A DNA stretch of 64,000 nt. It comes from Deltaproteobacteria bacterium (GTDB lineage Bacteria > Desulfobacterota > Syntrophia > Syntrophales > JACQWR01). This document shows positions 23,135 to 62,970 of the stretch, one piece after another. The position numbers were made by a program, and so were the translations under genes. Each line of letters begins with the position of its first letter. Position 1 is the stretch's first letter. The notes below the pieces were generated by a model. That model was not told the DNA's origin. It made no database searches and worked only from the letters and a program-made list of their open reading frames with translations. The stretch lies in NCBI GenBank assembly GCA_026388415.1, contig JAPLJV010000023.1, positions 1 through 64,000 on the forward strand, written 5' to 3'.

Positions 23135-23144
23135 GACCGCCCTC

Positions 23145-23175
23145 GTCGTCATTCCCGCGCAGGCGGGAATCCAGG
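23145..23175. repeat. REP-like hairpin between hsdR and hsdS
   Basis: attcccgcgcaggcgggaat is a perfect stem-loop preceded by cgtc and followed by ccagg, the short form of the dispersed family. It lies in the 58-base gap of a gene pair that is probably cotranscribed. Confidence 0.75.
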
Positions 23176-23192
23176 AATTTTAAAGGGGTAAG

Positions 23193-24470: not shown

Positions 24471-24535
24471 TTTTTTTAGATTCAGATGGATTCCCGCCGC
24501 AGTTTACCCTCGCGCAGGCAGGGGCGGGACATGAC
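24437..24535. repeat. Degenerate REP-like element forming the hsdS 3' end
   Basis: tcatccccgagtgcttctgt and cggggatccatg form one hairpin; a related second part (gatggattcccgcc and gggcgggacatgacag) follows after about 40 bases. The left hairpin is inside the hsdS coding sequence, so the insertion gave the protein its present C-terminus. Confidence 0.5.
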
Positions 24536-24566
24536 AGATTTTGTTCAATAGGATGCGCCAAGGCAT

Positions 24567-24625
24567 GGTGCATTCTATTTCCCATAAATAGCTTGACAAG
24601 GTATAAATAAAAAATACAATGCACC
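24567..24625 (+). promoter_or_regulatory. abiE promoter with flanking inverted-repeat operator
   Basis: TTGACA (24593-24598) and TACAAT (24615-24620) are 16 bases apart. The ATG of abiEi begins seven bases after the -10, where transcription would start, so the message is probably leaderless; no ribosome site is visible. GGTGCATT at 24567-24574 and its exact complement AATGCACC at 24618-24625 bracket the promoter. AbiEi proteins are known to bind inverted repeats in their own promoter, so this is a candidate operator. Confidence 0.7.
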
Positions 24626-24626
24626 C

Positions 24627-25427: not shown

Positions 25428-25428
25428 G

Positions 25429-26313: not shown

Positions 26314-26349
26314 TGTCATAATGACACTGTATGGTGTTGCATAATGACA
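26314..26349. promoter_or_regulatory. Palindrome and repeat upstream of hsdM
   Basis: tgtcataatgaca at 26314-26326 is a perfect 13-base palindrome directly after the abiEii stop. Its right part recurs as cataatgaca at 26340-26349. It could be an operator controlling hsdM, which must now be transcribed separately or by read-through from abiE. No clear -35/-10 pair accompanies it. Confidence 0.4.
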
Positions 26350-26403
26350 AACCACCTTCCATCGGAAGATTAATGGAATAAGTTTTAACGAGGCATCACT
26401 CCT

Positions 26404-27882: not shown

Positions 27883-28338
27883 AGGCAGGCGAGTGAAAGG
27901 AGGTCCGCGCCGGGGCGTCAAATGAGAGGAATAATTTGCATGAAAATGATCGGCAATGTCGGAGTATTATTAATTATATCATGTTGATAAGTTAGTTCAG
28001 CGCGCTGAACTGGCCTCCCGATGGGGGCCGGTCTAAGGGCTATCATTTTGGTGTATAGGATTGATTGAAGCGCACTGCCATTGCCGATATTCATGGTTGC
28101 TGTAGGAGCCATTTTGGCTTGATAAATCCTTTCCCGGAATAGATATATTGCGCATGATCTGATATTACAGATGTAGCATTAAGTGAAATTGGAAATTGTC
28201 CAATGATAATACTTGTAATATTTTTGACTGAATAGCACTGTAATCGGGCAAGTTGCGCGAACCGCTCAACTCGCCGTTATCTGGCACAGGATAGGTGATA
28301 AAATTTAATGAGTGGTCTCAAGAATACAACGGAATACA
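27883..28338. other. AT-rich intergenic region with a palindrome
   Basis: About 450 bases with no gene I can support. It contains an 18-base perfect palindrome followed at once by a second stem-loop (see the next entry), and marks the point where GC-rich restriction genes give way to AT-rich sequence. A 64-codon minus-strand frame (27918-28112) has no recognisable domain. This may be a junction left by an earlier insertion. Confidence 0.4.
27994..28029. repeat. Perfect palindrome plus adjoining hairpin
   Basis: agttcagcgcgctgaact (18 bases) is its own reverse complement. It is followed without a gap by ggcctcccgatgggggcc, a second hairpin with one G-T pair. The tandem arrangement suggests the end of a mobile element or a binding site, but I could not name one. 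Confidence 0.6.
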
Positions 28339-29613
28339 ATGAAAAACACTTTATTTGATATTCACAACGCTGATGCTCGAAACGTGGCTGACTACATTTA
28401 CGGAGAATTGATTACAACATCGATCACTTCCCCCCCGTATTTTGATATGAAAGATTACGGAGCAGACGATCAAATAGGTTTTGGTCAAAGCTATCATCAG
28501 TACTTGGAAGACTTAAAGATAGTCTTTTCAAGTATCTACAAGGTTACAAAGAATGATGGAACATTATGGATTATTATCGATACATTCAAGGACAAAAATG
28601 GGGTGGTCCTCCTACCTTTCGATTTGGCCTCAAAGTTAAAAGAAATTGGCTGGATGCTTCAGGACATTATCATCTGGAAAAAGGACAAAACTGTACCTTG
28701 GTCATCAGCAGGATTTGTTCAGCGAAAATTTGAGTACATTTTGTTTTTCTCGAAATCGAAAAACTTCAAGTACCATCGCGATAGAGTACGAATCTATGAC
28801 ACGAAACACCTTAAAAAATGGTGGGTTAGGTATCCTGAGCGGTATAACCCAAAGGGTAAAGCATTGGATGAAGTCTGGGAATTTTCCATTCCAACACAGG
28901 GATCTTGGGGTGATAAGTACATCAGACATTTTTGTCCTCTGCCTACTGACATGATTGGAAATATAATACAACTTACAACGGATGAAGGTGATATTGTTTT
29001 GGACCCGTTTTCTGGAAGTGGTTCGGTTTTAGTACAAGCAGCCTACATGAAAAGGAAATATGTGGGTTTTGAGATAAATACGAAATATATTCAAATGTTT
29101 AAGACTTATCGGCAGAAAACCTTAGCAAGTGGCACCAAAAAATACGAACAATTACAAGCTGATACTTCTAAGCAAGACGACTTCGAAAATATAATCCTGA
29201 AACTTCGTTGTTTGAAATACGCACGAGTCTTATACAACAAGACAGGAAAGCTTTTTGACACAAATCCAATCAAATATATTGTCGTTGACGATCTCGGTTA
29301 TAGTCAGGAAACGAATAAACTGAAGAAAGTGCGATATTCCATCATTTATAACCATAACCTTATATGTAGTAATGAATTCATCTCAATATTGCATGGGATG
29401 AGCACTGTTACCCCTCTTTCCAAATTTGGAATTGAGCCCGTAATAGAGCTAAAAAGCCATGTGGAGGACATTCATGGTGGTAAATCGTTGTATGGATATA
29501 CAAGCAGTAATACAAATAACACAATTGGAGAGGTGAACATAGGCGCTATCCCTCCAAAAGCACATATTCTTAGTCATATAAAAGTTGCAGTAGTCGAAAG
29601 TGATTTTGAATGA
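28339..29613 (+). CDS. DNA methyltransferase (N4-cytosine / N6-adenine type)
   Basis: 424 residues from the ATG at 28339 (a GTG at 28312 would add nine). The order of motifs marks the beta class: catalytic SPPY early (about 31-34 by this start), then the S-adenosylmethionine site LDPFSGSGSVLVQAA near 220. It should modify an exocyclic amino group in a short DNA site. The C-terminal 160 residues lie beyond the catalytic domain, have no motif I know, and may be a recognition domain. The gene is AT-rich and Lys/Ile/Asn-rich, unlike the hsd genes beside it, suggesting separate transfer. The DGQHR gene begins nine bases after its stop. Confidence 0.85.
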   Translation: MKNTLFDIHNADARNVADYIYGELITTSITSPPYFDMKDYGADDQIGFGQSYHQYLEDLKIVFSSIYKVTKNDGTLWIIIDTFKDKNGVVLLPFDLASKLKEIGWMLQDIIIWKKDKTVPWSSAGFVQRKFEYILFFSKSKNFKYHRDRVRIYDTKHLKKWWVRYPERYNPKGKALDEVWEFSIPTQGSWGDKYIRHFCPLPTDMIGNIIQLTTDEGDIVLDPFSGSGSVLVQAAYMKRKYVGFEINTKYIQMFKTYRQKTLASGTKKYEQLQADTSKQDDFENIILKLRCLKYARVLYNKTGKLFDTNPIKYIVVDDLGYSQETNKLKKVRYSIIYNHNLICSNEFISILHGMSTVTPLSKFGIEPVIELKSHVEDIHGGKSLYGYTSSNTNNTIGEVNIGAIPPKAHILSHIKVAVVESDFE

Positions 29614-29622
29614 AGGAATCTT

Positions 29623-31383
29623 ATGGCAAAAGCTAAGAAGAGATCCAAGAAAAAACTGACGGAACAAGAGAAAGAACAAAGACTACAAAAACAGGAAATT
29701 CGAAGGCTACTACACAATATAGGTTTTAGTAGGGTCACCGGAATCTCCGGTAAAGAATTTGTGTACGACGAAAGGACATCAGAAATTGATGATGCCTTTC
29801 ATTATGAAAATATCTTGTTGCTAATTGAATATACGACGCAGGCTAAGCCTGGAAATCATTTGATTGGTAAAAAGATTATATATGACAAGATCAATCTTTC
29901 TCATGTCAATTTCATTGAGTTCTTACTTAAAGATAATAAGTTTAAAAACTTTGCCGAGTATTTCAATAACTCCGTTCTAAAGAATTACACCACAAAGCAG
30001 ATTCAAGTCAGGACAGTGTATTGTTCAAGACACCCTATTTCCAAAGAGCATCGGGATCAGATTAATGGTGTATGCTTGTTGAATTACCCGATCGTGAAGT
30101 ATTTTGAGAGAATTGCCAAGGCAATTAAGAGGTCAGCGAGATATGAGTTCTTTCAATTCTTGAAAACTGATTATAATAAATTCAGTGAGAATATTACAAG
30201 GGGACACCTTGGCAGTAATACAAAGTTTTCCGGTCACATACTGCCAGAAGAACACAGTAAATACAAAGAGGGATACAAGATCATTTCTTTCTATATCGAT
30301 GCCGCTTCACTGATGCAGCGCGCATACGTGCTCAGGAGAGATGGTTGGAATAATGTTGGTACAATTGGGTTTTACCAGCGTATGTTTTCAGCAGATAAGA
30401 TCTCCAAAATGAGAAGCTATCTGTATGAAAAAGATAGAGTATTTGTTAATAATATCATCGCTGTTTTGCCAAGAGAAAAAATAAAATTGTACGGTGAAAA
30501 CAAAAAAGAAATCTCAGTGGGGAAGGATGGTAACTTCATAAACACCGACACAACAAGTGTGCAACCGACCCTGGTAGAGATTGACAATGATACGAATATA
30601 ATTGGAATTGTTGACGGCCAGCATAGACTCTATTCTTATCATGAAGGTACCGATAAATTTGAAGAGAAAATAGCGCGGCTGCGAAAGGTTCAGAACCTTC
30701 TAGTCACTGGAATTCTATACCCTGAGACTGAAAATAAGGAAGAAAAACTGAAATTTGAAGCGGAATTGTTTCTGGAAATCAATTCTAATCAGACAAATGC
30801 GGGCTCAGAACTTAAACAGGAGATAGAATTGATGATAGCTCCTTTCTCTTCAATTTCGGTCGCAAAGTCAATTCTAAATGCATTGAACGAGTCTGGTCCA
30901 TTAGAGAACTTGTTTGAGCAGCATTTCTATGAAAAAGGTAGGTTGAAGACCGCTTCTATAATCAGCTATGGCTTGAAGCCTCTTGTCAAATTTGATGGTG
31001 ACGATAGCCTATATAAGATTTGGACCCATCCCGACAAAAGCAGCCTTATAAATCATAATAATTATGTTCTATTAAATGCATATAAAGAATTTTGCGTCGA
31101 CGAAATTAGGAAGATTTTCATTGGCTTCAAAAACAACGTTGATGGTGACTCATGGACATCAGAACGATTGAATCCCAATGGCATTCTTAGAGTCACTGCT
31201 ATTAATGGCATCATCAATTGCCTCCGCCTACTAATTGAGAATGACAAAACCGAAGATATGGATTATTACAAGAAAAAACTCAAAGGTATTGCGGAGTTTC
31301 CTTTCAAGGATTACAAATCCAGTCAATACAGAAAAATGGGCGAAGAAATATATCGGCAATTCTTCAATGATGGGAAAATATAG
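29623..31383 (+). CDS. DGQHR-domain protein with possible nuclease-like N-terminus
   Basis: 586 residues. The motif IVDGQHRLYSYHEG at about 329-342 identifies the DGQHR domain, seen in DndB and DpdB, the regulators or partners of DNA phosphorothioate and deazaguanine systems. The N-terminus starts with a very basic segment (AKKRSKKKLTEQEKEQR). Residues 48-75 read YDERTSEIDDAFHYENILLL and then IEYTTQAK, a spacing of acidic residues (Glu54, Asp56, Glu69) and Lys75 like a PD-(D/E)xK nuclease core; this is my inference. It is cotranscribed with the methyltransferase. Together they look like a modification enzyme plus a target-sensing or cutting partner. Confidence 0.75.
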   Translation: MAKAKKRSKKKLTEQEKEQRLQKQEIRRLLHNIGFSRVTGISGKEFVYDERTSEIDDAFHYENILLLIEYTTQAKPGNHLIGKKIIYDKINLSHVNFIEFLLKDNKFKNFAEYFNNSVLKNYTTKQIQVRTVYCSRHPISKEHRDQINGVCLLNYPIVKYFERIAKAIKRSARYEFFQFLKTDYNKFSENITRGHLGSNTKFSGHILPEEHSKYKEGYKIISFYIDAASLMQRAYVLRRDGWNNVGTIGFYQRMFSADKISKMRSYLYEKDRVFVNNIIAVLPREKIKLYGENKKEISVGKDGNFINTDTTSVQPTLVEIDNDTNIIGIVDGQHRLYSYHEGTDKFEEKIARLRKVQNLLVTGILYPETENKEEKLKFEAELFLEINSNQTNAGSELKQEIELMIAPFSSISVAKSILNALNESGPLENLFEQHFYEKGRLKTASIISYGLKPLVKFDGDDSLYKIWTHPDKSSLINHNNYVLLNAYKEFCVDEIRKIFIGFKNNVDGDSWTSERLNPNGILRVTAINGIINCLRLLIENDKTEDMDYYKKKLKGIAEFPFKDYKSSQYRKMGEEIYRQFFNDGKI

Positions 31384-35445: not shown

Positions 35446-35481
35446 TTTAAAAAATAACGGGGAGCGAGATGAAGCTCCCCG
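35446..35481 (-). terminator. Rho-independent terminator (minus strand)
   Basis: ggggagc pairs with gctcccc at 35459-35480, followed on the minus strand by gttatttttt. It ends the gene remnant at 35494-35565 and would also block transcription arriving from the downstream side. Confidence 0.65.
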
Positions 35482-35829: not shown

Positions 35830-38463
35830 TCAAAGTTCATCCAAACCGTCGTCGTTTTTTGCAGGGGCTCCGGTCTTTTGGGGGACGATTTTTCTGTAGA
35901 CTTCTTGCGGTGATCTTGTTTCAGCGGTAACGGTTAAAAGTCTGGCGATAGAAATATCGAAAAGTTTTTCATTCTCTTCAAGATAGGGCAGGATCAATTT
36001 CCAGTCTGCATCGGTCATGGCTACAAACTCCCCGCCGTTGAGCTGTTCAGCGACCAGTTTTCTGTGGGGATCTCGCACGTAAATCGCACCGCCGGAAGCC
36101 AGGGAAAAAATATTGGATCCTGGGTAGGGTGATTCATATTCGCGGATCGCCCCGTCGTTATCATCGAATCCGATACCGTTTAGAACAACAAAGCCGCCGC
36201 CGTTGAGCGGATCACCGGCCATGAACGATTCCGCAAGATAGTCCAGAGCTGTTCCGTTGATGACCACCCGCGGCTTGCCGACGGCGTTAATCAAGGGCCG
36301 TCCCGCTGCGTTGCCCATGATGTAGGCAGCGCCTCCTTTGGCGCCGTACATGAAGGTCTGGCCGACATCGCCGAATACTACCAGCTTCCCATCTTTCATG
36401 ATCTGGCAAAGCTGATCCTGGGCATTACCATGAACATATATCTCCATACCGTCAATACCCGATGCCAGGTAATCGCCCGAAGCGCCATAGACGTCAATCC
36501 GCACATCGTTTGTTGCGGGGCCAAACCCGCAGCCGGTAAAACGCTGGCCGCGGTATTTGTAAACAATGAACCTCTTCCAGCCGAGTTTGTGGGCGGCCAC
36601 GATCATCACCGCATCGCAGTTGTCGCCTTCCGGATCAAAACGTTCCGCATCAATGATGAGGGTCCTTTCGTTCTTTTGGGGCGCACGCAGTTGAGCACGG
36701 GTGGCAAAGTTGATCCGGCTGAAACCGGCATCAGACTTTGCCGTGATCAGGGGGGTAGCGGAAAAAATCTCATCCAGGTTGATCTTCAGGACATGCTGAA
36801 CGGAGCTTCTTTTTATTCTGCCGGTGTTGTACCGCCGGTCGTTTAACATTGTCAGGGCATCGGTAGCCGTTTGCTGGAAGTCATCCTTTTCCACGGCATA
36901 CCCCTTGATGGTTTCAATCGCGAACCTGAGCCTGTCGGTATCAAATCCCGCGATATTGTCCCGGATATAGGCAAATATTTTTTGCGCGGTCGCCGCGGTA
37001 TCATTTTCTGCAAACAATCCGGCCAGTTTTTTTTCTATCGTCTTACATTCATCCGTCACGGTGATCTGTTTTGAGATGTCGCAGACGAGCTTATCTTTGG
37101 GAGTTTCAATTACTTTCCCGAATTTGTCGGTGCAGATGAGTTTCTTGTTTCCCGAACCGTCGCCGGCATCCCTGAGGCTGAAGATGAAAGCGCCGCCATC
37201 CGTATAGCTGCCGCCGCGGGCATTCCAGTATTTATCGGCAATGGGTCCGAACCGCGGATCTTCCCTTTCCAGAGATATGAGCGTGGCATCAATGGCCTGC
37301 TTTTCCGAGCAGATCAGGCCGATCTGCACCTCGCCCTCCTGCAGGGCAAACACCTGGGGGCGGAGCATGGCCGTATCCGTAATGCCGATCAGTTGGAACT
37401 GATCATTCTTCCAGTCATTTCGGGCGATAATGAAGAACCACGGTCCGTCGGGCGACGCATTGACGTGATGGGTCTGAATGGCCTTATACAGCTTCTGTTT
37501 TTCCGCAGGAAGCATGTCAAAATCCATTTCCGAGGTCGGCGCCATCGCCTCAATCAGGTACTCCAGGGGATATTTGTAAACACGGCTCCACAGATCGAGA
37601 AGGCATGCCGCCTCCTCCGTATCGGTCAGAAACAGGGGGTAGTAGTTCCGCTGTTTGAGATATTCGTAAACGGCTTGATAGTTTGCGAAATCACCGTTGT
37701 GTACCAGCGCCTCATGGAGCGCGCTGAACGGGTGGCAACCACCGGGATGCCAGACGCGACCGCGGGTCGGATATCGCTGGTGGGCAAGCCAGGCATGCGC
37801 CTTGAAGTCGTCCAGCTTGTAGTAACGGACCACATTCTCCGCATAACCGACAATTTTCAGAATCATCATGTTCCGGCCATGGGACATGACAAAGGCCTTT
37901 TTTTCACCGAGGGAAGCATAATACTTGGAGTTGATGCGGAAGCTGTTCTGATAGACAAACTCGTCCTCGGCATCCCGCCGGTCCAGGGAGGAGAAATTGT
38001 TAGCGAGAATGTATTTGTCCAGGACGTCGTTCTTGACGCGAACGAAATAACGCATGATGTCCGGGGGCCTGACGTCAAGACCGATACTGCGGTAGTCATC
38101 AATCGTGTCCAGCTTCTCGGACTTGTCAATTTGAAAGTAAGGTTTGATGAAAGTGTCTTCAATCTCATCGGCAACACCGGCATCCAGGAGGGCGATGTGG
38201 AACATGTAATCCTCGTCCAGGACCTGCCGGGAGACGCCCAGGGCTTCGGGAACAAATCCGACGGCGCCAATGCCGCCGCCTTTCCCGTTGCCTCTGTTGT
38301 GCATCTGTACGGACGGCTCAAAGATATTCTTCCCGGTGACGGGAATGGAACTGATAAATCCGGTGACGCCGCAGCCCCCTTCCTCTTCGGTATTCGGGGC
38401 GAGGATCGGCACTTGGCTGCACAGCTCAGTGCGTGAAAGTAATATTTTTTCAGCGTTATCCAT
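35830..38463 (-). CDS. Glutamine amidotransferase / GXGXG glutamate-synthase-like protein
   Basis: 877 residues from the ATG at 38463, which has ggag ten bases upstream; a TTG at 38484 would overlap the previous gene. Domain 1 is a class II glutamine amidotransferase: nucleophile Cys31 in GGCGVTGFISS, preceded by a 30-residue leader that must be removed, as in glutamate synthases. VWHPGGCHPFSALHEALVHN belongs to the same domain. Domain 3, in the last 300 residues, is the GXGXG beta-helix (VFGDVGQTFMYGAKGGAAYI). The FMN domain found between these in GltB is encoded separately upstream. It should release ammonia from glutamine for the partner proteins. Confidence 0.88.
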   Translation of the reverse strand: MDNAEKILLSRTELCSQVPILAPNTEEEGGCGVTGFISSIPVTGKNIFEPSVQMHNRGNGKGGGIGAVGFVPEALGVSRQVLDEDYMFHIALLDAGVADEIEDTFIKPYFQIDKSEKLDTIDDYRSIGLDVRPPDIMRYFVRVKNDVLDKYILANNFSSLDRRDAEDEFVYQNSFRINSKYYASLGEKKAFVMSHGRNMMILKIVGYAENVVRYYKLDDFKAHAWLAHQRYPTRGRVWHPGGCHPFSALHEALVHNGDFANYQAVYEYLKQRNYYPLFLTDTEEAACLLDLWSRVYKYPLEYLIEAMAPTSEMDFDMLPAEKQKLYKAIQTHHVNASPDGPWFFIIARNDWKNDQFQLIGITDTAMLRPQVFALQEGEVQIGLICSEKQAIDATLISLEREDPRFGPIADKYWNARGGSYTDGGAFIFSLRDAGDGSGNKKLICTDKFGKVIETPKDKLVCDISKQITVTDECKTIEKKLAGLFAENDTAATAQKIFAYIRDNIAGFDTDRLRFAIETIKGYAVEKDDFQQTATDALTMLNDRRYNTGRIKRSSVQHVLKINLDEIFSATPLITAKSDAGFSRINFATRAQLRAPQKNERTLIIDAERFDPEGDNCDAVMIVAAHKLGWKRFIVYKYRGQRFTGCGFGPATNDVRIDVYGASGDYLASGIDGMEIYVHGNAQDQLCQIMKDGKLVVFGDVGQTFMYGAKGGAAYIMGNAAGRPLINAVGKPRVVINGTALDYLAESFMAGDPLNGGGFVVLNGIGFDDNDGAIREYESPYPGSNIFSLASGGAIYVRDPHRKLVAEQLNGGEFVAMTDADWKLILPYLEENEKLFDISIARLLTVTAETRSPQEVYRKIVPQKTGAPAKNDDGLDEL

Positions 38464-38480
38464 TATTAGCAAGCTCCGCT

Positions 38481-39962
38481 TCAATTGCTGTAATCTATAT
38501 GCTCAAGCAGATCCGTCCGTCCGACAAGCTCTTTGACACTTTTCATGCCGAACTTCTGGAGGATCTCGACCAGCTGGACATTCCATGCATGGTACATATT
38601 GGTCAGACGCTGTGTCGCCCATTCCTCGCCGAACAGGTCTGCCAGTTCGGAGTCCGTCGAGGCGATACCCCGGGCGCAGCCTCGTCCCGATTCACAATTG
38701 CCGCAGCGGACACATTCCAGGGAGACCAACTCCGCCGTACCGATGACAGCCCCGTCGGCGCCAAGGCAGATCGCTTTGGCCAGGTCATGGGCGGTCCGGA
38801 TGCCGCCGGAGGCGATGAGCGTCACGGCATCCCGGACGCCCTCATCCTTCAGGAAACCATGAACCTTGACGATGGCGTACTCGATGGGCATGGCAATGTT
38901 CTTCTTGGCAATATCCGGGGCGGCGCCGGTGCCGCCGTAACCGCCGTCAATGTGGATAATATGCGCGCCGGCATAGTATGAACCGACGGCAACCATGTCC
39001 ACGTCATTGGGTGTGGAAACCTTAACGGAAACCAGGGCCTGCGGATTCATCTCCTTTATCCAGTCAATGTGCTTCTTATGATCTTCGATGGAATAGACAG
39101 AGTGAAACGGGAAGGGCGAAAACAGGGATGTGCCTTCGACGGCCTCGCGCATTCGGGCAACACTTTCCGTATTTTTCTCTCCGAGAAGGTGTCCGCCGAG
39201 GCCTGGTTTTGCGCCCTGGGCGTATTTAAACTCGATGATTTTTACCCGCTGGACGCTTTCCTCGCTCACACCGAACAGACCGGTGGCGATCTGGGTGATC
39301 ACGTGGTCATCATAAGGTTTGAGCATCTCCGGGTAGCCGCCTTCACCGGTGCAGGTAAAGGTATTCCATATCGCCGCATTCCGCGCCTTGGAAACCATGG
39401 TGGTGAGGCTGACGGATCCGAAGGACATGCCGCCGCCATAGACCGGGGTTGAGATGAATACAGCGGCCCGTCCGTCATTTCTCCGGTTCAGTTCAATGGC
39501 CGTGGAGATTTCAGACTTGTCAACCTGCGGCGGATGGGTGGGAAATTTGAACCGTAGCTTGTCAAAGCCGCCGCCGGAATTGCCCACATTATATTCGAGG
39601 TCCGTTCGCTTTGGCGGATAACCCGTCTCGGCCATGATCCATGTCCCGGTGATAATGTCCGCTGTCCAGCGAAAATCTCCCAGCGTGTCATACATGGGAT
39701 TGAGAGACAGACTCAACGCCTGGCGCGGGCATTTGGCAAGGCAGCAGAAATCCTCACTCTGACACTCAAAGCCGATGCATTTGTAGTCTATGGGCGGGTT
39801 TACCTTGTTGTGCCCCTCAACCCTTTCATGGACGCCGTATGGGCATGTCTTGGCACACGTACCGCAGTTGATGCAGGCATCCGACCGGGTGATCTTGTAC
39901 TTCGGCACCTGGTGCTTGAATCGCGAAGGCATCTTTCTGATTATTACCGTTGATGGTTTCAT
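38481..39962 (-). CDS. Glutamate synthase FMN domain with ferredoxin N-terminus
   Basis: 493 residues. A ferredoxin-type segment at about 25-80 has CINCGTCAKTCPYG and further cysteines. The rest is the glutamate synthase FMN barrel: GGGMSFGSVSLTT, CTGEGGYPEM, KYAQGAKPGLGGHLLGEKN, IIHIDGGYGGTGAAP and SGGIRTAHDLAKAICLGADG, plus the 3Fe-4S cysteines in CVRCGNCESGRGCARGIAS. All the catalytic motifs are present, so it can take ammonia and 2-oxoglutarate to glutamate. It overlaps its upstream paralog by four bases. With the amidotransferase downstream it makes a split glutamate synthase of the kind seen in archaea and some anaerobes. Confidence 0.9.
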   Translation of the reverse strand: MKPSTVIIRKMPSRFKHQVPKYKITRSDACINCGTCAKTCPYGVHERVEGHNKVNPPIDYKCIGFECQSEDFCCLAKCPRQALSLSLNPMYDTLGDFRWTADIITGTWIMAETGYPPKRTDLEYNVGNSGGGFDKLRFKFPTHPPQVDKSEISTAIELNRRNDGRAAVFISTPVYGGGMSFGSVSLTTMVSKARNAAIWNTFTCTGEGGYPEMLKPYDDHVITQIATGLFGVSEESVQRVKIIEFKYAQGAKPGLGGHLLGEKNTESVARMREAVEGTSLFSPFPFHSVYSIEDHKKHIDWIKEMNPQALVSVKVSTPNDVDMVAVGSYYAGAHIIHIDGGYGGTGAAPDIAKKNIAMPIEYAIVKVHGFLKDEGVRDAVTLIASGGIRTAHDLAKAICLGADGAVIGTAELVSLECVRCGNCESGRGCARGIASTDSELADLFGEEWATQRLTNMYHAWNVQLVEILQKFGMKSVKELVGRTDLLEHIDYSN

Positions 39963-41368
39963 ACGCTCGCTGCTTCTCTTTTTTTAAATAGTTTTCCAAA
40001 GGTGTCTTTGTCAATTTCATCAAAGAAGATTGCCCGGCCCGTTTCACCCCGCAGACGACGGGCTTCACGGATACCCATGGCGCCCATCACCTCAAGGAGC
40101 TGCGAATGCCACGCGCCCATGAGGTTTATGATTCTCTGGGTGACGATTTCCACCGGGATTTTTTCCAATCCTGCCGGGAGAACCAGCAGCTTTTCCGGCT
40201 CTTCGTATAACCGGGCGCCGATGGCAATGAGCAGTGGCAAGTCTATGGCCGTTAAGTCGGCACCACAGAGCATGGCCTTGGGGACATGTTCCGCCATGGC
40301 GATACCGCCGGAGAAGATAAGGGTGACCTCGTCGCGAATCCGTTCATCAATAAGCCGCAGGTGGACGGCCCGGATTATGTCAGTTATCAGTCTCGGACTT
40401 GGGGAGGGAGGGCCGTTGACTTCCAGGCCGCGGTAGTCGGCAACGACGTGGATAATCTCCGCGCCGCTGTGCGCAAGCTTGGCAACTATGGTCTCCACGT
40501 CTTTCACTGCCGGAATTCTAATGATTGTCAGGGCGCTGCTGATGCTCTTAATTTTGTCTTTCACGACCGGGAAATTGTTCAGAAGTTCACCGTCATACTC
40601 GACGGCCACAAACCGCGCTTTTTTGAGTAAGGCCTGGTGTTGGGCGATTTCTTTATGATTTATGCAGGGGATGATGTTGGGGGTGTATTTTTCAACATCC
40701 GGTGTTATACTGGCAGTCGGCATGATGATGCACGTGTTGATCGCCGCCGCCGCCTTGATTAGGGCAAGCTTGACATTCCCGCTCAGGCTATCCGCCGGGA
40801 TATCAAAGAGAATGGGAATGGGAAGATCAACCGTGTCGTGAATCGGCGATAATAACTGCCCGTTGGCATCAAAGGCCAGATGATTGAGTTTTCTGCCCAG
40901 TTCAACAGAGGTACTGATATACTCCCGTCCGTGGATTCCGTCCCGGGTCGGGCGGACGATTTCAGACATGTCCGTCCACATGCTATCGAACCCCGTTCCG
41001 GTAAACGGTCCCCTGTATCCGGCGCCGGTAACCGGCACCTTTCCGTCCTCTGCCTGCTTCCAGAGGGTGATGAACATATCAGGCTTCCAGTAAGAACCGC
41101 CGATATCCATAAAGTTGCGTTCCAGCGATTTCTCCAGGGCTCCCCGGGGGCACTCCTGGATGCACCGGAAGCAGTTTCTGCATAACACCGTGTTCGGGTC
41201 CGCCATCTTGCGCGGATCGCCTTTCTGCCGTTCATGTGCTTCATAAATGCATACTTTGGCGCACTTACCGCAGTTAATGCAGTTTTCACCCCGCACAATC
41301 TTGAACTTGAATATGTACTCCAGATCAAGGGGCGTCGTTTTCGCGTGAATGTGATATTTCTTCGGCAT
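39959..41368 (-). CDS. Diverged glutamate-synthase-like FMN-domain paralog
   Basis: 469 residues with the same layout as the next gene: a ferredoxin-type N-terminus (CINCGKCAKVCIYEAHERQK, then CRNCFRCIQECPRGALE) and a barrel of the glutamate synthase type (SGGIAMAEHVPKAMLCGADL). The motifs that bind FMN and substrate are missing: there is no TGEGG, no KPGxGG and no 3Fe-4S cysteine trio. It ends with a GAWHSQLLEVMGAMG segment like its paralog. It is probably a structural or electron-carrying subunit, or has a different substrate. The four-base overlap with the true FMN gene shows they are made together. Confidence 0.8.
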   Translation of the reverse strand: MPKKYHIHAKTTPLDLEYIFKFKIVRGENCINCGKCAKVCIYEAHERQKGDPRKMADPNTVLCRNCFRCIQECPRGALEKSLERNFMDIGGSYWKPDMFITLWKQAEDGKVPVTGAGYRGPFTGTGFDSMWTDMSEIVRPTRDGIHGREYISTSVELGRKLNHLAFDANGQLLSPIHDTVDLPIPILFDIPADSLSGNVKLALIKAAAAINTCIIMPTASITPDVEKYTPNIIPCINHKEIAQHQALLKKARFVAVEYDGELLNNFPVVKDKIKSISSALTIIRIPAVKDVETIVAKLAHSGAEIIHVVADYRGLEVNGPPSPSPRLITDIIRAVHLRLIDERIRDEVTLIFSGGIAMAEHVPKAMLCGADLTAIDLPLLIAIGARLYEEPEKLLVLPAGLEKIPVEIVTQRIINLMGAWHSQLLEVMGAMGIREARRLRGETGRAIFFDEIDKDTFGKLFKKREAASV

Positions 41369-41393
41369 AGTCGCTATTCATCTTTATTAGTAG

Positions 41394-41412
41394 GCCGCGT
41401 GCCCCCACGCGG
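41394..41412. repeat. Hairpin between operon genes
   Basis: ccgcgtg pairs with cacgcgg around a C-rich loop in the 63-base gap between the FAD oxidase gene and the diverged paralog. It may adjust expression within the operon. Confidence 0.5.
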
Positions 41413-41431
41413 CGTAGCCAAGGGTGCTGTT

Positions 41432-43276
41432 TTAGTTATTCCGTTCCACCATGTCCCAGTATTCCCTGCTGTCGTCAACCTGCTGCAGGAATTCCGTAAT
41501 CTGAGCTTCCGGACGGCCGAACTTGTCTTCAATCCTTTTTTCCAGCGCATCCCAGAACATCATGAGTTCGAGATTGGTCTGGCATATCTCCTCACAGGCC
41601 TTGCAGTGCATGCACATAAAAGCGTTTGCTGCTTCTTCCCGTGTCACTTCTTTGCCGGTAATGAGTTTCTTGGCCAGCGCTATCTTCCCTTTTGCAGTTA
41701 CCCCTTCATCTTTCGTGATAAGATAGGCGGGGCATACGGCCATGCAGTTTCCGCACTTGGCGCAGGCATGGATGCTTAGCTCGAAATCGAGGCTGGCGAT
41801 TTTTTCATCCTTTCCAAGGAGCGATGTGGCCACCTTACCGATGATCGGTGACAGCAGCGTCATGATATTCATAGAAAAGCCAAAAACAGCCGGATGGAAG
41901 ACAAGGGCGGAGAATCCCGTTGAATTAACACCGAAGAATTTCCCCGGATTCAGGATATTGTTCGGATCTACCTTGGCCTTGTATGCCTTAAGCTCACGCT
42001 GTTTTTCACCGCTGTATAGGGCATTGATAAAAGCGGCATTCCAGAGGCCAAGTCCATAGGGCTCGGCGCCCAATGTAACAGCCGTCTTGGTAAGCATGGA
42101 AACCAGGGGCATATTGATATAATATTTTATATTCCTGGAGTCGCAAAGGAAGGTGGCCATGATGAGTGCCTGTTTCTCGTCGAGGATATAAGAGTCTATG
42201 CATATTTCAACGCCGAAACGGATGCCCAGTATCTTTGCTTTTTCAATAAAGGCGGGGGCGGCTGTAATCGGGATAATAATTTCGCTTGCCAGGATGGTCG
42301 GTCCCAGTCGCTTTGTCTTCATCCCGAACAGGCGCTCGTTCCACAGGTAACTTGCGGCATAACGCGGCGCTTCTTCAATGTTGCCAGTCTGTGACATGAA
42401 TTTCACAAAACACTCTTCATCTTTGGCGCTGCCGAACTCCATGAAAACGCCGGCGCTCTTCCTGAATATGCCGGCCCGCATGACTGCGTTTGTGTCCTGC
42501 AGATGATTTGCATCCAAAAACCGGATGACGTTGGGGTTGAGGTTCTCTGAGATTCTGCTTTTTACGAACCGGGCGATGAACGCGAAAGCCTCACTGTCGC
42601 CATGGAAATACAGAAGATGGGCGTATGACGCCTCGGGCATATCACGAAGTTTGAGGGTGGCCTCAACCACGATGCCAAACTCCTCCTCGGTGGATACAAA
42701 AAAGGCGAAATCAGGGTCGGAAGGGGATAACATTTTAAGTTCGCCGACGCCTGTGATAACCTTCAGGGACACGATCTGCTTTGATAAGTGGCCGTATTTG
42801 AAGCTGTTAATCCCGTAGCCGCCCGTCGAAATCCAACCGGCAACCGTGGAAAACTTGCTTGAGGGGTAGGTCATCAGACACAGGCCCTCTTTCTTGGCCA
42901 TGATATCAATATCGCTCCACCGGGCGCCCGCTTCAACGGTGACGGTCTTGGCTGCGGTGTTGAGCTCCAGGATTTTCCGGAAAGGAGACAGGTCAATGAC
43001 GATCCCGGCATTGGTCGGGATGACGCCGCCGAAGCCCCACGATGCGGCGCCTCTCGGTATCACGGGGATTTTCCAGTCATTGGCAAACGCCAGGACCTTT
43101 TTTATCTCGTCCGCGTTTTTAGGCTGAATGATAAAATCGGGTTGTGTTTTAAAAAATGCTTTGGTCATGATATCGGGAACATCACCAATATCATGGCTGT
43201 ACATCTCTCTTTCAGCCATTTTGCCGAGTATTTTTATATCGCCCGCGATCTTTCTGAATTCATCTACTGACTGCAT
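41432..43276 (-). CDS. FAD-linked oxidase with C-terminal iron-sulfur clusters
   Basis: 614 residues. The N-terminal part is an FAD-binding oxidase of the GlcD/lactate dehydrogenase type: IPVIPRGAASWGFGGVIPTN and PSSKFSTVAGWISTGGYGIN. A cap domain follows. The C-terminal 150 residues carry two ferredoxin-type sites, CAKCGNCMAVCPAYLI and CMHCKACEEICQTNLE. Enzymes of this form oxidise hydroxy acids and pass electrons to a carrier. As the first gene of the operon it may feed electrons into the glutamate-synthase-like proteins in place of NADPH; this is inferred from context. The substrate is unknown. Confidence 0.88.
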   Translation of the reverse strand: MQSVDEFRKIAGDIKILGKMAEREMYSHDIGDVPDIMTKAFFKTQPDFIIQPKNADEIKKVLAFANDWKIPVIPRGAASWGFGGVIPTNAGIVIDLSPFRKILELNTAAKTVTVEAGARWSDIDIMAKKEGLCLMTYPSSKFSTVAGWISTGGYGINSFKYGHLSKQIVSLKVITGVGELKMLSPSDPDFAFFVSTEEEFGIVVEATLKLRDMPEASYAHLLYFHGDSEAFAFIARFVKSRISENLNPNVIRFLDANHLQDTNAVMRAGIFRKSAGVFMEFGSAKDEECFVKFMSQTGNIEEAPRYAASYLWNERLFGMKTKRLGPTILASEIIIPITAAPAFIEKAKILGIRFGVEICIDSYILDEKQALIMATFLCDSRNIKYYINMPLVSMLTKTAVTLGAEPYGLGLWNAAFINALYSGEKQRELKAYKAKVDPNNILNPGKFFGVNSTGFSALVFHPAVFGFSMNIMTLLSPIIGKVATSLLGKDEKIASLDFELSIHACAKCGNCMAVCPAYLITKDEGVTAKGKIALAKKLITGKEVTREEAANAFMCMHCKACEEICQTNLELMMFWDALEKRIEDKFGRPEAQITEFLQQVDDSREYWDMVERNN

Positions 43277-43837
43277 GTGTTATACTTCTCTTCAGTTCTT
43301 TATAAGTAATTGCTTTTGACGGGCCGGAGTATAGGGGGACTGTTTTTATTTGTCAATCCATATTTGGATCCATATTTGGATGAAATTCAAATTCGACGAA
43401 AACTTCGGCAGACGAACGCAGCATATTTTTCAAATTGCCGGTCATGATGTTAAAAAATCCACCACCACGCCTCCATAAATCTCTGCCATTTAATCAGCGA
43501 TTTGTCGCTGGTTGAATAGCAGAAGCTGCCCAGAGCGGCCGAGCATGATAAGGCTTGACACATGGAAAAATTTTCGCTATCGTCGCGAAAACTCGTGGAA
43601 GCTAAAATTTGCCCAAGCCGTTTTGTAACCTGTTGCAATAATTAGGCGATAATTGTGGAAAAGGCCCATTTTCGACTTTAACGAGGCTATCATATTTGAT
43701 AAATGAAAGGGGGGATGGCAAGAAAATAAACGTATTGTTGTAAAAAATCATAACTAGATTGTTTAATTAAGGCGGCGTAGGTAAGGTTTCATGTAACCCG
43801 GACTGAGGTAGTTCCAGATGTTAGAAACACTAGGTTT
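43277..43837. other. Divergent intergenic region, no gene
   Basis: About 560 bases between the glutamate-synthase-like operon and the PEP-mobile gene. A plus-strand TTGACA near 43553 followed 17 bases later by tatcgt is a weak promoter candidate for the rightward gene. I looked for a sigma-54 site and found none. Short frames in both strands have no protein features. Confidence 0.4.
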
Positions 43838-45475
43838 GTGGACTTTTCTCATTCCTATCCGGCATGGACGCCGCTATTTGAATGGTCGTGGGTCTTCAAT
43901 CTGGTCAATGGTCACATCTACGGTTGCAATGAGGCGTGGATTCCCGATACGAGGTCTTCCGACTGGAGGGAGATTGATGGTATGGCTGTGTGTGTAGCTA
44001 CACCGGTTCCCACCAAGGAAGAGCGTGATTTCAGGTATGCGAAATTTTACGATCGCACCAAGAACGATTTCGAACCGAATTACGACAAATACTGGGAGAA
44101 GAGTAAAAGCGAGATGCTCGGCCGTTATGACACGCTGAAGGATTTTGATTATGATAAAGCGACGTTCTACGAGCTGTACAAACAGTTTAATTTTGCTATC
44201 GAGACGCATAAGAGGATGTGGGAAGACCATTTCTTATTTATGTATGCGCTATATGGGGCATACTGGTATTTTGAGGACCTCTGCAAGCAGTACGTTGGGA
44301 TTAAGGAAACGTCAACGGATTGGCACCGGCTGATCCGAGGGTTTGATAATATGCTTTTCCGGCAGGACAAGGTCATGTGGGAACTCCGGAATAAGGCGAT
44401 CGAGTATGGGATTGACAACATCATCTTCAACAACCCGTCGGCAAAGGTGGTTGAGGAGCTGAACAAGACACCCCAGGGTAAAAAGTGGGTTGATGTAGAT
44501 CTCTACCATTTTATGCATGAGCTGGGCTACGGCTGGCGTATGATCCGTATGATGGAGTTTGTAGAACCGACGTGGTGGGAAGCGCCGGAAAACGCTATCC
44601 TGCATGTGAAGCAGTACCTGTTGGAAGACAGGGTTATTAAGCCGTTCCCGCTGGATGCTATACGAGAGCGTCTTGCTAAAGACAGAGCGGTAGTGGAGAA
44701 GGAGATTGTGGCGAAGGCTGAGGCCGCTGGATGCAAGGATATGGAATGGTTCAAGTCCCTCATGAGACTTTCTCAGAGGACGAGCTCCTTCAGCGAGGGC
44801 CATGACTTCCTGTATGAACACAGATGCTTCTCGGCATTCAGATTTGCCATGCTGAAGATTGGCGAGCGTCTTGCCAAGGTTGGGACAATTGATAATGCAG
44901 ATGACATCTTCTTCTTCATCCCGGAAGAGCTTCAGACCATGATTGCTATGCCCGAGAACTACCAGAGCGGATTCATCGCCAGGGATAGGAGGGCAGAGTG
45001 GACTGCCAATAAGGAATACCTGACGCGCCCACCGATAATGCCGAGAGATCCCAACATGACGCCCCCCGAGGCAGGCGCCTTTATGGTAGCAGCTAAAGAT
45101 CCGATCATCGCGAAGATCACGATTGGTGAATTCATACAGCCGGATACGTCGTTGGGTGCGCTCTGCTATGGTAACCCTGGAAGCCCCGGCGTGGCCGAGG
45201 GACCTGCGTGTATCGTTATTACCTCTGCCGACCTGAAGAAGCTGAGAGTTGGGGACATCATGGTTTGTCCATCGTCCCAGTCATCATACACACCGGTATT
45301 CCCGTTGCTTAAGGGTGTCGTATGCAATGGCGGAGGCAGTCTGTCCCATGGTCCGATTGTCGGAAGGGAATGGGACATCCCTGTGGTAGCGAACTGTATC
45401 ACTGGAACGCAGTTGATCAAGGACGGAGACATGATCAGGATCGACGGAACCAGGGGATTAGTATTTAAGTTGTAA
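43838..45475 (+). CDS. PEP-utilizing enzyme mobile-domain protein
   Basis: 545 residues, GTG start with no clear ribosome site; the frame stays open back to 43781 but offers no better start, so the N-terminus is uncertain. The C-terminal 100 residues are the swivelling phosphohistidine domain of PEP synthase and pyruvate phosphate dikinase: GGGSLSHGPIVGREWDIPVV holds the phosphorylated histidine. The first 430 residues are aromatic-rich and helical and are not a PEP- or ATP-binding domain I know. Subunit 1 of phenylphosphate synthase is comparable in size and design. The ATP-binding partner is not in the window. It may phosphorylate an organic substrate. Confidence 0.8.
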   Translation: MDFSHSYPAWTPLFEWSWVFNLVNGHIYGCNEAWIPDTRSSDWREIDGMAVCVATPVPTKEERDFRYAKFYDRTKNDFEPNYDKYWEKSKSEMLGRYDTLKDFDYDKATFYELYKQFNFAIETHKRMWEDHFLFMYALYGAYWYFEDLCKQYVGIKETSTDWHRLIRGFDNMLFRQDKVMWELRNKAIEYGIDNIIFNNPSAKVVEELNKTPQGKKWVDVDLYHFMHELGYGWRMIRMMEFVEPTWWEAPENAILHVKQYLLEDRVIKPFPLDAIRERLAKDRAVVEKEIVAKAEAAGCKDMEWFKSLMRLSQRTSSFSEGHDFLYEHRCFSAFRFAMLKIGERLAKVGTIDNADDIFFFIPEELQTMIAMPENYQSGFIARDRRAEWTANKEYLTRPPIMPRDPNMTPPEAGAFMVAAKDPIIAKITIGEFIQPDTSLGALCYGNPGSPGVAEGPACIVITSADLKKLRVGDIMVCPSSQSSYTPVFPLLKGVVCNGGGSLSHGPIVGREWDIPVVANCITGTQLIKDGDMIRIDGTRGLVFKL

Positions 45476-57735: not shown

Positions 57736-59067
57736 TTACAGCATGGGCAGATACCGGTCAATTTCGAACTGGCTGACATGGGTCCGGAAAAGATCCCACT
57801 CCACCTTTTTATTTTCAATAAATTTGTTAAAGATGTGATCTCCGAGCGTTTCTTTGACCAATTTGCTCTTGGATACAGCCACCATGGCCTCGTAGAGGCT
57901 GCCTGGCAGCGTCGTGATGCCGGCCTTTGCACGGGCCTTCTCGTCCATTTCAAAGATGTCTTCCTCAACCGGTTCGGGCAGGCGATACTTGTTCTTGACG
58001 CCTTCCATACCGGCGGCCAGCATGACCGCAAAAGCCAGGTAGGGATTGCAGGCGGGATCCGGGGAACGATACTCGATGCGCGTTGCCTTCTCTTTGCCCG
58101 GTTTGTACATGGGAACGCGCACCATGGCCGACCGGTTGCGGCGCGCCCAAGAGACATAAACCGGGGCCTCGTAACCCGGCACCAGCCGTTTGTAGGAGTT
58201 GATCCACTGATTACAGATGGCGGTGATTTCCGGGGCATGGGTCATGAGACCCGCAATGTATTGTTTGGCCATATCGGAGAGATGATATTTGTCGGTGCCC
58301 TTAAAAAAGGCGTTCTTATTACCCTTGAACAGAGACTGATGGACGTGCATGCCGCTGCCGTTCTGCCCAAAGATGGGTTTGGGCATGAAGGTAGCGTAGA
58401 CGCCGTTCTGCCGGGCAATTTCCTTGACGACAGTACGATAGGTCATGACCTTGTCGGCCATTTTCAGGGCCTCGTCATAGCGTAAATCAATTTCATGCTG
58501 GCTGGGCGCTACCTCATGGTGTGAATACTCGACGCGGATACCCATGTCCTGAAGAGCAAATATGGTCTGGCGGCGCAGGTCGGTGGCGCGATCCACGGGC
58601 AGGCCGTCGAAATACCCGCCCCGATCCAGAAATTCAGTGCTTTTGTCATTGGCAAAATAGAAAAATTCCAGTTCCGGCCCCACTAAAAAGGCATAGCCCA
58701 TATCGCCCACTTTTTTCAGCATGCGCTTCAGGACGTAACGGGGATCGCCCTCGTAGGGAGTGCCGTCGGGATTTTGAATATCGCAGATCATGCGGGCCAC
58801 CGGACGGTCGGAGGGCCGGTAGGGTATCATTTGAAAGGTCGTGGGGTCGGCCATAGCGATCATGTCGCTCTCTTCAATCCGGCAGAAACCCTGGATGGAC
58901 GAGCCATCGAAGCCCATGCCCTCCGTCATGCCCTCTTCCAGTTCCGAAGGCGTAATGCTGAATATCTTCTGCACCCCCAGGACATCGGTAAACCAGAACT
59001 GCACAAAACTGACATTTTTTTCCTTGACGATTTTCAGAACATCTTCCTTCGTTTTACAATCGAACAT
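57736..59067 (-). CDS. glnA: Glutamine synthetase type I (GSI-alpha-like)
   Basis: 443 residues, the length of the GSI-alpha group (about 444) rather than the 470 of GSI-beta. Visible motifs: MGFDGSSIQGF, the ATP/metal segments GPELEFFYFA and FMPKPIFGQNGSGMHVHQSL, and RNRSAMVRVPMY. The adenylylation site found in GSI-beta (NLYDLPPEE) is not present: the corresponding stretch reads NKYRLPEPVEEDIFEMDEKA. Activity is therefore not expected to be set by adenylylation, so control probably is by feedback or by transcription. It makes glutamine from glutamate and ammonia. The gene has a good ribosome site (aaaggag). Confidence 0.95.
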   Translation of the reverse strand: MFDCKTKEDVLKIVKEKNVSFVQFWFTDVLGVQKIFSITPSELEEGMTEGMGFDGSSIQGFCRIEESDMIAMADPTTFQMIPYRPSDRPVARMICDIQNPDGTPYEGDPRYVLKRMLKKVGDMGYAFLVGPELEFFYFANDKSTEFLDRGGYFDGLPVDRATDLRRQTIFALQDMGIRVEYSHHEVAPSQHEIDLRYDEALKMADKVMTYRTVVKEIARQNGVYATFMPKPIFGQNGSGMHVHQSLFKGNKNAFFKGTDKYHLSDMAKQYIAGLMTHAPEITAICNQWINSYKRLVPGYEAPVYVSWARRNRSAMVRVPMYKPGKEKATRIEYRSPDPACNPYLAFAVMLAAGMEGVKNKYRLPEPVEEDIFEMDEKARAKAGITTLPGSLYEAMVAVSKSKLVKETLGDHIFNKFIENKKVEWDLFRTHVSQFEIDRYLPML

Positions 59068-59111
59068 ATAATACTCCTTTCGTTACACTAAAATATAGGT
59101 CATGGAAAAGC

Positions 59112-61161: not shown

Positions 61162-61200
61162 TGGACTATCTCCAATTACCGTATGGTGGGAGCATAAGGT

Positions 61201-61251: not shown

Positions 61252-61253
61252 TT

Positions 61254-61269: not shown

Positions 61270-61321
61270 GACAACGATAAACTAATTGAAAATCTAATTG
61301 TAAAGGAAGAATGGAGCTATC

Positions 61322-62545
61322 ATGGCAAATCAAATTAATGCGGGCGACACTGCCTGGGTACTGGTCTGTTGTTCTTTAGTACTGTTGATGACACCAGCCT
61401 TGGCGCTTTTCTACGGGGGCATGGTGCGACGGAAAAACGTTCTTTCCACGCTGACGCTAAGCTACACCTTCATGGCCCTGATCGGGGTGCAATGGGTCTT
61501 CTACGGCTATTCTCTGGCTTTCGGCCCGGACATTAACGGCCTCATCGGAGGACTGAATTTTGTGGGTTTCAACGGCGTCGGGGCTCTGCCCGACGGAGCT
61601 TACAGCAAGACCATACCCCATGAACTTTTTGCCGCTTTTCAGATGATGTTCGCGGTCATCACGCCGGCGCTGATTACCGGTGCTTTTGTGGAGCGGGTGA
61701 AATTCAAGAGCTTTCTTTTGTTCAGTCTGCTTTGGGCCACTTTCGTCTATGATCCCTTGTGTCACTGGGTATGGGGACAGGGGGGGTGGCTGAAGCAGAT
61801 GGGTGTACTGGATTTTGCCGGGGGAACGGTGGTACATATTGCGGCCGGTTTTTCAGCTTTGGCTTTTGCGCTCGTTATCGGACCGCGGAAAGGGTACGGC
61901 AAGTCTCCTATGGAACCGAATAATATCCCGCTGACGGTCCTGGGGGCCGGCCTGTTGTGGGTGGGCTGGTTCGGTTTCAATGCCGGCAGCGCCCTGGCTG
62001 CCAACGGGGTGGCGGTGAATGCCCTGGTGACCACCAACACCTCGGCGGCGACAGCCGGTCTGGTCTGGATGATGCTCTCCTGGCTGGATGGCCGGCCCAG
62101 CACGCTGGGAATTGCCACCGGGATGGTGGTGGGTCTGGCGGCAGTAACCCCTGCGTGCGGCTACGTAACACCTCTGGTAGCCATGGTTATCGGAGCAGTC
62201 GCAGCGCCCCTGTCTTATTATGCCATGCGCTTGCGGGACAAACGGCAATTGGACGAATCTCTGGACGTGTGTGCCTGTCACGGGGTAGCCAGCACGTGGG
62301 GCATGATCGCCACCGGTCTTTTTGCCACAATAGTCGTCAACAGTGACGGCGCCAACGGCCTGTTTTTCGGCAATCCCGATCAGATAGGAGTTCAGCTGCT
62401 GGCCGTGGTGGTTACCATCGTTTTTAGTTTCGGGGTTACCTATATTTTGGCCAAGTTGCTGCACTGGAGCATCGGGCTGCGGGTTACGCCCATGGAAGAA
62501 GAAGTTGGCCTGGATATCAGCTCTCATGGAGAGAGATCCTATTAA
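61322..62545 (+). CDS. amtB: Ammonium transporter AmtB
   Basis: 407 residues with eleven predicted membrane segments. GDTAWVLVCCSLVLLMTPAL opens it, and FAGGTVVHIAAGFSALAFAL holds the first conserved pore histidine. CACHGVASTWGMIATGLFAT holds the second. It conducts ammonium or ammonia into the cell and is normally blocked by GlnK when nitrogen is plentiful. It lies behind a sigma-54 promoter, and glnK begins 32 bases after its stop. Confidence 0.95.
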   Translation: MANQINAGDTAWVLVCCSLVLLMTPALALFYGGMVRRKNVLSTLTLSYTFMALIGVQWVFYGYSLAFGPDINGLIGGLNFVGFNGVGALPDGAYSKTIPHELFAAFQMMFAVITPALITGAFVERVKFKSFLLFSLLWATFVYDPLCHWVWGQGGWLKQMGVLDFAGGTVVHIAAGFSALAFALVIGPRKGYGKSPMEPNNIPLTVLGAGLLWVGWFGFNAGSALAANGVAVNALVTTNTSAATAGLVWMMLSWLDGRPSTLGIATGMVVGLAAVTPACGYVTPLVAMVIGAVAAPLSYYAMRLRDKRQLDESLDVCACHGVASTWGMIATGLFATIVVNSDGANGLFFGNPDQIGVQLLAVVVTIVFSFGVTYILAKLLHWSIGLRVTPMEEEVGLDISSHGERSY

Positions 62546-62577
62546 GCAGTTTTATTGTATCACGGGGAGATTTTGCC

Positions 62578-62970
62578 ATGCTGAAAAAGATTGAAGCCAT
62601 TATTCGTGAAGATAAGATCAATGATGTCAAGGACGCCTTGATTGAAATTGGCATCGTTGGTATGAATATGTTTGAAATACGTGGACATGGCCGACAGGGC
62701 GGCATTAAACTGGCGGGTCGTTCCGGCACCTACCAGGTAGATATGCTGCCAAAGATCCAAGTCAACATCGTCCTGAGTGAACGCAATCTGGAAACAACGA
62801 TTGCAACTATCCTCAAGGCCGCCTATACGGGGGAACCAGGCGACGGGCTTATCTTTATCTATCCCGTGGAGGAGATCATTCGCATCCGCACGGGGGAGCG
62901 CAGCCAGGACGCTGTGATGTATCCTGGTGATATAGATGAAAGAAAAGGTATCAGCAAGGGTAAAACCTGA
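62578..62970 (+). CDS. glnK: Nitrogen regulatory protein P-II
   Basis: 130 residues, longer than the standard 112 because of a C-terminal tail of about 18. The T-loop reads GRSGTYQVDMLPK; Tyr52 aligns with the uridylylated Tyr51 of GlnB/GlnK, though the loop is otherwise diverged. YTGEPGDGLIFIYPVEEIIR is the P-II C-loop signature. It senses ATP, ADP and 2-oxoglutarate and plugs AmtB. It is coupled to amtB and has a good ribosome site (ggggag). Confidence 0.93.
   Translation: MLKKIEAIIREDKINDVKDALIEIGIVGMNMFEIRGHGRQGGIKLAGRSGTYQVDMLPKIQVNIVLSERNLETTIATILKAAYTGEPGDGLIFIYPVEEIIRIRTGERSQDAVMYPGDIDERKGISKGKT

Follow-up and report, generated by a model that had tools for sequence, protein, structure and literature searches.

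The operon at positions 35830-43276 of the window (the whole stretch of DNA analysed here, 64,000 nucleotides) probably encodes an unusually built glutamate synthase, in which the electron-input module is exchangeable and FMNd, a degenerate twin of the synthase subunit, serves as a relay or scaffold without FMN. The chemistry of the operon is most likely that of glutamate synthase, a main entry of nitrogen into biomass, for which NADPH, NADH and ferredoxin are the known electron donors and F420H2 a proposed one. The core of the operon (FMNd-FMNc-GATG) is widespread in anaerobic bacteria and is seemingly the only glutamate route in at least one complete genome, so that its electron donor is a missing piece in the picture of how syntrophs and related anaerobes metabolise nitrogen. 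No description of the subunit plan, the flavin-free twin or the alternative inputs was found in the open-access literature searched.

Organisation of the operon

The source genome is a 2.79-Mb assembly whose nearest named relatives, judged by FMNd, are Syntrophaceae/Smithella-type Desulfobacterota. OX, FMNd, FMNc and GATG are four minus-strand genes, in that order, downstream of one strong predicted promoter:

43328..43356 (-), sigma-70-like promoter TTGACA-17-TATACT, 52 nt upstream of the OX start (consensus match only)
41432..43276 (-), OX, 614 aa, Pfam FAD_binding_4 with weak FAD-oxidase_C and Fer4_8; proposed electron-input subunit
39959..41368 (-), FMNd, 469 aa, N-terminal 2x[4Fe-4S] domain and degenerate synthase barrel; proposed relay/scaffold subunit
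38481..39962 (-), FMNc, 493 aa, N-terminal 2x[4Fe-4S] domain and complete FMN/2-oxoglutarate synthase domain; proposed catalytic synthase subunit
35830..38484 (-), GATG, 884 aa, class-II amidotransferase fused to a GXGXG beta-helix with no FMN domain between
35458..35481 (-), terminator-like hairpin of 8 pairs, 7 of them G-C, ~350 nt 3' of GATG (consensus match only)

This layout agrees with an earlier note on this DNA, which had placed four genes here, the first an FAD oxidase with two ferredoxin sites, and had described a fused amidotransferase and GXGXG domain and a separate FMN domain present twice: all four open reading frames were found on the minus strand, with GATase_6 and GXGXG both in GATG, Glu_synthase in both FMNc and FMNd, and the expected Pfam domains and eight cysteines in OX. 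The gap between OX and FMNd is 63 nt, and the FMNd/FMNc and FMNc/GATG pairs each overlap by 4 nt. GATG starts at a TTG codon, and an ATG at 38463 is the start common to many relatives. The promoter matches the consensus at 11 of 12 positions and had the top score in the scanned region; scanning upstream of OX gave no good sigma-54 site for the operon, and no Rfam elements were found near it.

Divergent from the operon, at 43838-45475 (+), lies a gene for a 545-aa protein whose sole domain is a PEP-utiliser mobile domain (PF00391), in place of which many relatives have a ~860-aa PPDK_N protein 3' of the operon. Elsewhere in the window, 20387-31380 (+) holds a defence-like island comprising type I restriction HsdR, HsdS, an AbiEi/AbiEii-like pair and HsdM, followed by an N6/N4 methyltransferase and a 586-aa DndB/DpdB-like protein (weak match), with GC down to 39% at 28-32 kb.

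FMNc and GATG retain the catalytic motifs tested

FMNc matches Glu_synthase (PF01645) at full strength (293 bits) and solved glutamate synthases at E 4e-50. Its universal synthase positions are retained, and with them the segments binding FMN and 2-oxoglutarate in the solved enzymes. The 3Fe-4S cysteines C417, C423 and C429 are invariant in 91/91 sequences, as are K252, R272 and E293, which align with Synechocystis GltS K972, R992 and E1013, residues that we take to matter for 2-oxoglutarate binding and regulation. The eight cysteines of the N-terminal 2x4Fe-4S domain are likewise present in all 91, and the earlier statement that one FMN copy retains every catalytic motif holds for all the motifs tested. 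In GATG the amidotransferase residues C38 (after a propeptide), R237, H262-N263 and D288 are invariant in 81-82 of 82 sequences, and the GXGXG beta-helix (PF01493) scores 49.4 bits against a cut-off of 32.5. The sequence features of a glutamate synthase (GOGAT) in the broad sense, namely class-II GATase residues, a synthase barrel, the 3Fe-4S triad and GXGXG, are all present.

FMNd is an old, degenerate barrel

The Pfam match of FMNd to Glu_synthase is weak and partial (29 bits). Across the 62 positions that are universal to the synthase domains of FMNc, archaeal-type and ordinary GltB, FMNd retains 8 at ≥80% and has lost 45; the segments GMSFG, GEGG, the whole AKPGxGG to YSIED stretch and GGTG are gone. 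Since the same FMN-site losses are common to 101 FMNd sequences, they are no accident of sequencing or assembly. Other parts are strictly kept: all eight ferredoxin-domain cysteines (C30, 33, 36, 40, 63, 66, 69 and 73) are present in 101/101 sequences, and FMNd has an invariant stretch of its own, AGYxGPF...WTDMSEIVRPTRDGIHGREYI. In the tree FMNd and FMNc form two clades with full support (100/100), in a phylogeny such as the earlier note had proposed, and this makes FMNd old and of single origin rather than a recent decayed copy.

The predicted model of FMNd (pLDDT 74, pTM 0.76; the ferredoxin part weak, with pLDDT <50 at 29-76 and 113-146) finds its best fold match in the FMN domain of solved glutamate synthases (Z ~23, residues ~790-1175). 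FMNd is thus predicted to have kept the FMN-barrel fold whilst losing the FMN/2-oxoglutarate site, and we infer that it holds no FMN. Retained FMN contacts in a structural model would have counted against the earlier note's reading; the model keeps the barrel fold, and the alignment lacks the FMN/2-oxoglutarate residues. The loss of TGEGG, the KPG segment and the 3Fe-4S cysteines that the note had reported is real for the window's FMNd on all three counts; as a family trait it holds for the FMN site in all 101 sequences and fails for the 3Fe-4S triad, which 59 of 101 retain and the clade of the window's FMNd has lost. The triad is missing from 40 of 42 OX-type FMNd and from 2 of 58 MvhD/Met-type, counts that reflect mostly one clade; a mechanistic tie between the OX type and triad loss was dropped on this ground and because two OX-type lineages (L056 and L095) retain the triad. 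Apparent N-terminal extensions of FMNd at three loci (L060-L062) proved to be out-of-frame metF sequence rather than domains.

FMNd and the central domain of GltB

In GltB the central domain is a truncated barrel which, together with the FMN domain, forms the lining of the ammonia tunnel. It may have arisen by duplication of the FMN domain or independently, an open question (Vanoni, PMC8097209) on which the conserved, presumably flavin-free barrel of FMNd bears. In profile comparisons with 24 central domains, archaeal GltB2 reached 98.7% (E 3e-16) and FMNd 94.8% (5e-8), followed by FMNc at 78% and ordinary FMN domains at 62%, whilst IMPDH, IPP isomerase and two other groups all stayed below 3%; with depth-matched sets FMNd still scored above FMNc. 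These profiles favour a relationship of the central domain with GltS-type barrels over the other FMN barrels tried. Descent of FMNd from the central domain was rejected, the best profile match of FMNd being FMNc (E 6e-73) and that to the central domain far weaker (5e-8), and FMNd would instead be an analogue of, or a parallel case to, the central domain. For the duplication hypothesis it is relevant that the central domains of ordinary GltB (L172-L197) are specifically related in profile to archaeal-type GltB2 barrels, and show no such relation to IMPDH or IPP isomerase.

Distribution, linkage and fusions

Of 395 genomes sampled from the phylum, 109 encode an FMNd relative at E 1e-25 or better; relatives also occur in contigs assigned to Chloroflexota, Firmicutes and Fibrobacterota, though misbinning may account for some of these. 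The genes for FMNd, FMNc and GATG are grouped together in the ~100 loci examined, save where a contig ends. Some families have FMNd-FMNc fusions (e.g. L103), a fusion of OX with FMNd only is seen at one locus (L095), and one bacterial family has all four, from OX to GATG, in a single protein of ~2530 aa. Such a natural four-domain fusion is strong evidence for a single complex, and we infer that the four proteins work as one; the fusions also support the earlier proposal of a four-protein complex with a non-catalytic FMN paralog and an FAD/Fe-S input.

The electron input

Two 4Fe-4S sites are present in OX (C505/508/511/515 and C555/558/561/565), and all eight of their cysteines are conserved in 40-41 of 41 sequences. 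In 52 of 62 OX-less loci MvhD, MetV and MetF stand in its place, compared with 0 of 41 OX loci, an exclusivity that partly reflects shared ancestry, which inflates its significance. These are the protein families that make up the MetVF-MvhD complex of Moorella (PMC5736913).

Ferredoxin is a possible electron donor. An ordinary ferredoxin-dependent split synthase, in which free ferredoxin feeds the Fe-S domains of FMNc and FMNd and OX acts as a dehydrogenase of its own, placed in the operon by chance, would fit the bacterial-ferredoxin-type domains of both proteins and the 62 loci where the FMNd-FMNc-GATG core occurs without OX. We nevertheless consider it unlikely, as all close OX relatives found in the phylum accompany FMNd, OX can be fused either to FMNd alone or to the entire core, and the OX-less loci mostly have another redox module. 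Outside the operon the nearest relatives of OX are ~1040-aa FAD/Fe-S proteins, one of them in its own genome, and ~490-aa FAD proteins. The nearest in its own genome (contig C30, L218:7419-10496) is a ~1030-aa FAD, 4Fe-4S and cysteine-rich (CCG-like) protein with 27-28% identity.

A synthase driven by 2-hydroxyacids, with OX oxidising lactate, glycolate or 2-hydroxyglutarate and passing the electrons on to make glutamate, is suggested by the fold of OX, which is nearest to D-lactate dehydrogenases (Z 29) and to LctD of the Ldh-Etf complex (Z 27.7), and by the LWxxR arginine kept in 41/41 sequences. However, the metal-binding motif GHxGDGNxH and the EHG histidine motif are not present in the aligned OX sequences, PYGxGxWN occupying the EHGIG position in 41/41 full-length proteins, whereas two GlcD paralogs of the same genome (L149 and L150) retain both. 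The absence of the two motifs makes hydroxy-acid oxidation by the usual mechanism unlikely, and we regard this reading as improbable; the hydroxy-acid-driven enzyme put forward in the earlier note is weakened accordingly. As OX has lost the residues on which catalysis depends in the closest characterised relatives, it may oxidise no small substrate at all, or its electrons may come from another substrate or from a protein partner.

It is very improbable that the enzyme is an electron-bifurcating synthase, in which downhill glutamate formation would be used to reduce a low-potential carrier by way of the additional Fe-S subunit and a partner of the HdrA/MvhD type. MvhD does adjoin the core in most loci that lack OX, as does HdrA in 8, and MetVF-MvhD-Hdr complexes are proposed to bifurcate (PMC5736913, PMC9012536), but HdrA, MvhD, Etf and an NAD(P)H site are all absent from the OX-type operon of the window and no bifurcating flavin was identified.

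Product and place in nitrogen metabolism

The motifs discussed above point to glutamate as the most likely product of the operon. FMNc is the only full PF01645 match in its own genome and in seven relatives with an OX-type operon, and genes of nitrogen assimilation lie at 56-63 kb of the same window (carA, glnA, a sigma-54 activator, amtB and glnK):

57736..59067 (-), glnA (glutamine synthetase)
59272-59287 (-), sigma-54 -24/-12 site before glnA, perfect match
61254-61269 (+), sigma-54-like site before amtB, one mismatch
61322..62970 (+), amtB and glnK (PII)

The number of sigma-54 matches across the window is below chance, the perfect site ahead of glnA notwithstanding. The nitrogen cluster (57736-62970) also contains a gene for a GAF/sigma-54 activator (-). 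Across loci the neighbours include glutamine synthetases I and III, PII, AmtB, CarAB and PurF, and 50 of 103 loci have a glutamine synthetase, PII or AmtB gene at a distance of no more than about 8-10 kb.

In the complete genome of one relative (G039) no glutamate dehydrogenase of PF00208 or PF05088 was found and GltD-like matches were weak, none being strong, so the operon is seemingly its sole route to glutamate; both dehydrogenase families are also absent from G315. The window's own genome and most OX-type relatives have a glutamate dehydrogenase, and the operon therefore need not be the main glutamate route there. The earlier note had named, as a finding that would overturn it, that the operon is the genome's only and ordinary glutamate synthase; it is the only one, and its subunit plan is not the ordinary one. 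Most genomes of the same order without the operon encode a different glutamate-synthase-related protein of 540-640 aa with Fe-S motifs and ~30% identity to FMNc (L159-L163, L166 and L167, from same-order genomes mostly lacking the operon).

A new kind of amidotransferase-oxidoreductase that makes something other than glutamate, FMNd forming a second and different substrate site, could call on the invariant segment peculiar to FMNd and on the ordinary GltB found alongside in some genomes (G332, G289 and G018). The universal synthase positions of FMNc, the nitrogen-assimilation neighbours and the sole glutamate entry found in G039 oppose it, and we give it very little weight. The new product suggested earlier is unlikely for the same reasons, the operon being the genome's only glutamate synthase with glnA, amtB and glnK in the same window. 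Methylamine-glutamate N-methyltransferase (Mgs) was also considered.

Proposed mechanism

In the glutamate synthase proposed here, GATG would hydrolyse glutamine to glutamate and ammonia, and the ammonia would pass to FMNc and combine with 2-oxoglutarate to give 2-iminoglutarate, which reduced FMN would convert to a second glutamate. Electrons would run from the FAD of OX through its 2x4Fe-4S to the 2x4Fe-4S of FMNd, then to the FMNc clusters and FMN, an order proposed by analogy and paralleling the path of the NADPH enzyme (FAD > 4Fe-4S > 4Fe-4S > 3Fe-4S > FMN; PMC8097209). FMNd itself would neither bind FMN nor catalyse, docking the input module and relaying electrons, and it may fill the structural place of the GltB central domain, whose truncated barrel helps to line the ammonia tunnel.

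More tentatively, these operons might form a separate class of anaerobe glutamate synthases that draw on dedicated organic donors of moderate potential, not NAD(P)H, through exchangeable modules, with FMNd in the place of the central domain. One such module would be the altered FAD oxidase; another, MetF-MetV-MvhD, would take its electrons from the methyl-/methylene-THF couple. The methylene-/methyl-THF couple lies near -0.2 V and that of 2-oxoglutarate plus ammonia/glutamate near -0.12 V, so donors of this type should be thermodynamically possible. If such a class exists, FMNd would show how a central domain could arise by duplication and decay of a synthase barrel.

Comparison with known systems

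The operon shares with the NADPH-dependent GltBD of A. brasilense (PDB 6S6X, 2VDC; PMC8097209) the class-II GATase, the FMN/2-oxoglutarate barrel with 3Fe-4S cysteines and the GXGXG helix, as well as electron entry through an FAD subunit with two 4Fe-4S clusters. It differs in that the input FAD protein has the GlcD/VAO fold and there is no adjacent GltD (adrenodoxin-reductase-like) subunit, a PF14691 match lying on another contig. The single ~1500-aa GltB with PF04898 is replaced by separate proteins, the synthase domain being one of them and a degenerate FMN-barrel protein another, and the PF04898 central domain is lacking; no match to PF04898 at E 1e-20 was found in genome G000.

The archaeal-type split GltS, represented by Monoglobus (L154, L157 and L158), likewise has a separate FMN-domain protein with an N-terminal 2x4Fe-4S domain, 33-35% identical to FMNc. 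The Monoglobus system has an FAD-dependent oxidoreductase with an Fe-S partner, and its type has a single GltB2, separate GATase and GXGXG genes and no degenerate twin, in contrast to the fused GATG and two FMN-domain proteins of the operon. The putative F420-dependent FGltS (PMC3448663; PMC9012536) is an earlier case of an archaeal-type synthase with a swapped electron-input subunit, there an FrhB/FdhB-like protein in methanogens; FMNd and OX are not described there, and the window's operon has no FrhB/FdhB-like gene.

OX has its FAD fold (FAD_binding_4) in common with LctBCD/D-lactate dehydrogenase and GlcD-GlcF (PDB 7QH2, 8JDx), and its ferredoxin-like segment resembles the N-terminus of GlcF, but it lacks both the histidine motifs of GlcD-type D-2-hydroxyacid dehydrogenases and the CCG domains. 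Finally, the MetV, MetF and MvhD of the Moorella system are of the same families as the neighbours in OX-less operons; in Moorella they are coupled to HdrABC, whereas here they adjoin the FMNd-FMNc-GATG core, with HdrA in few loci.
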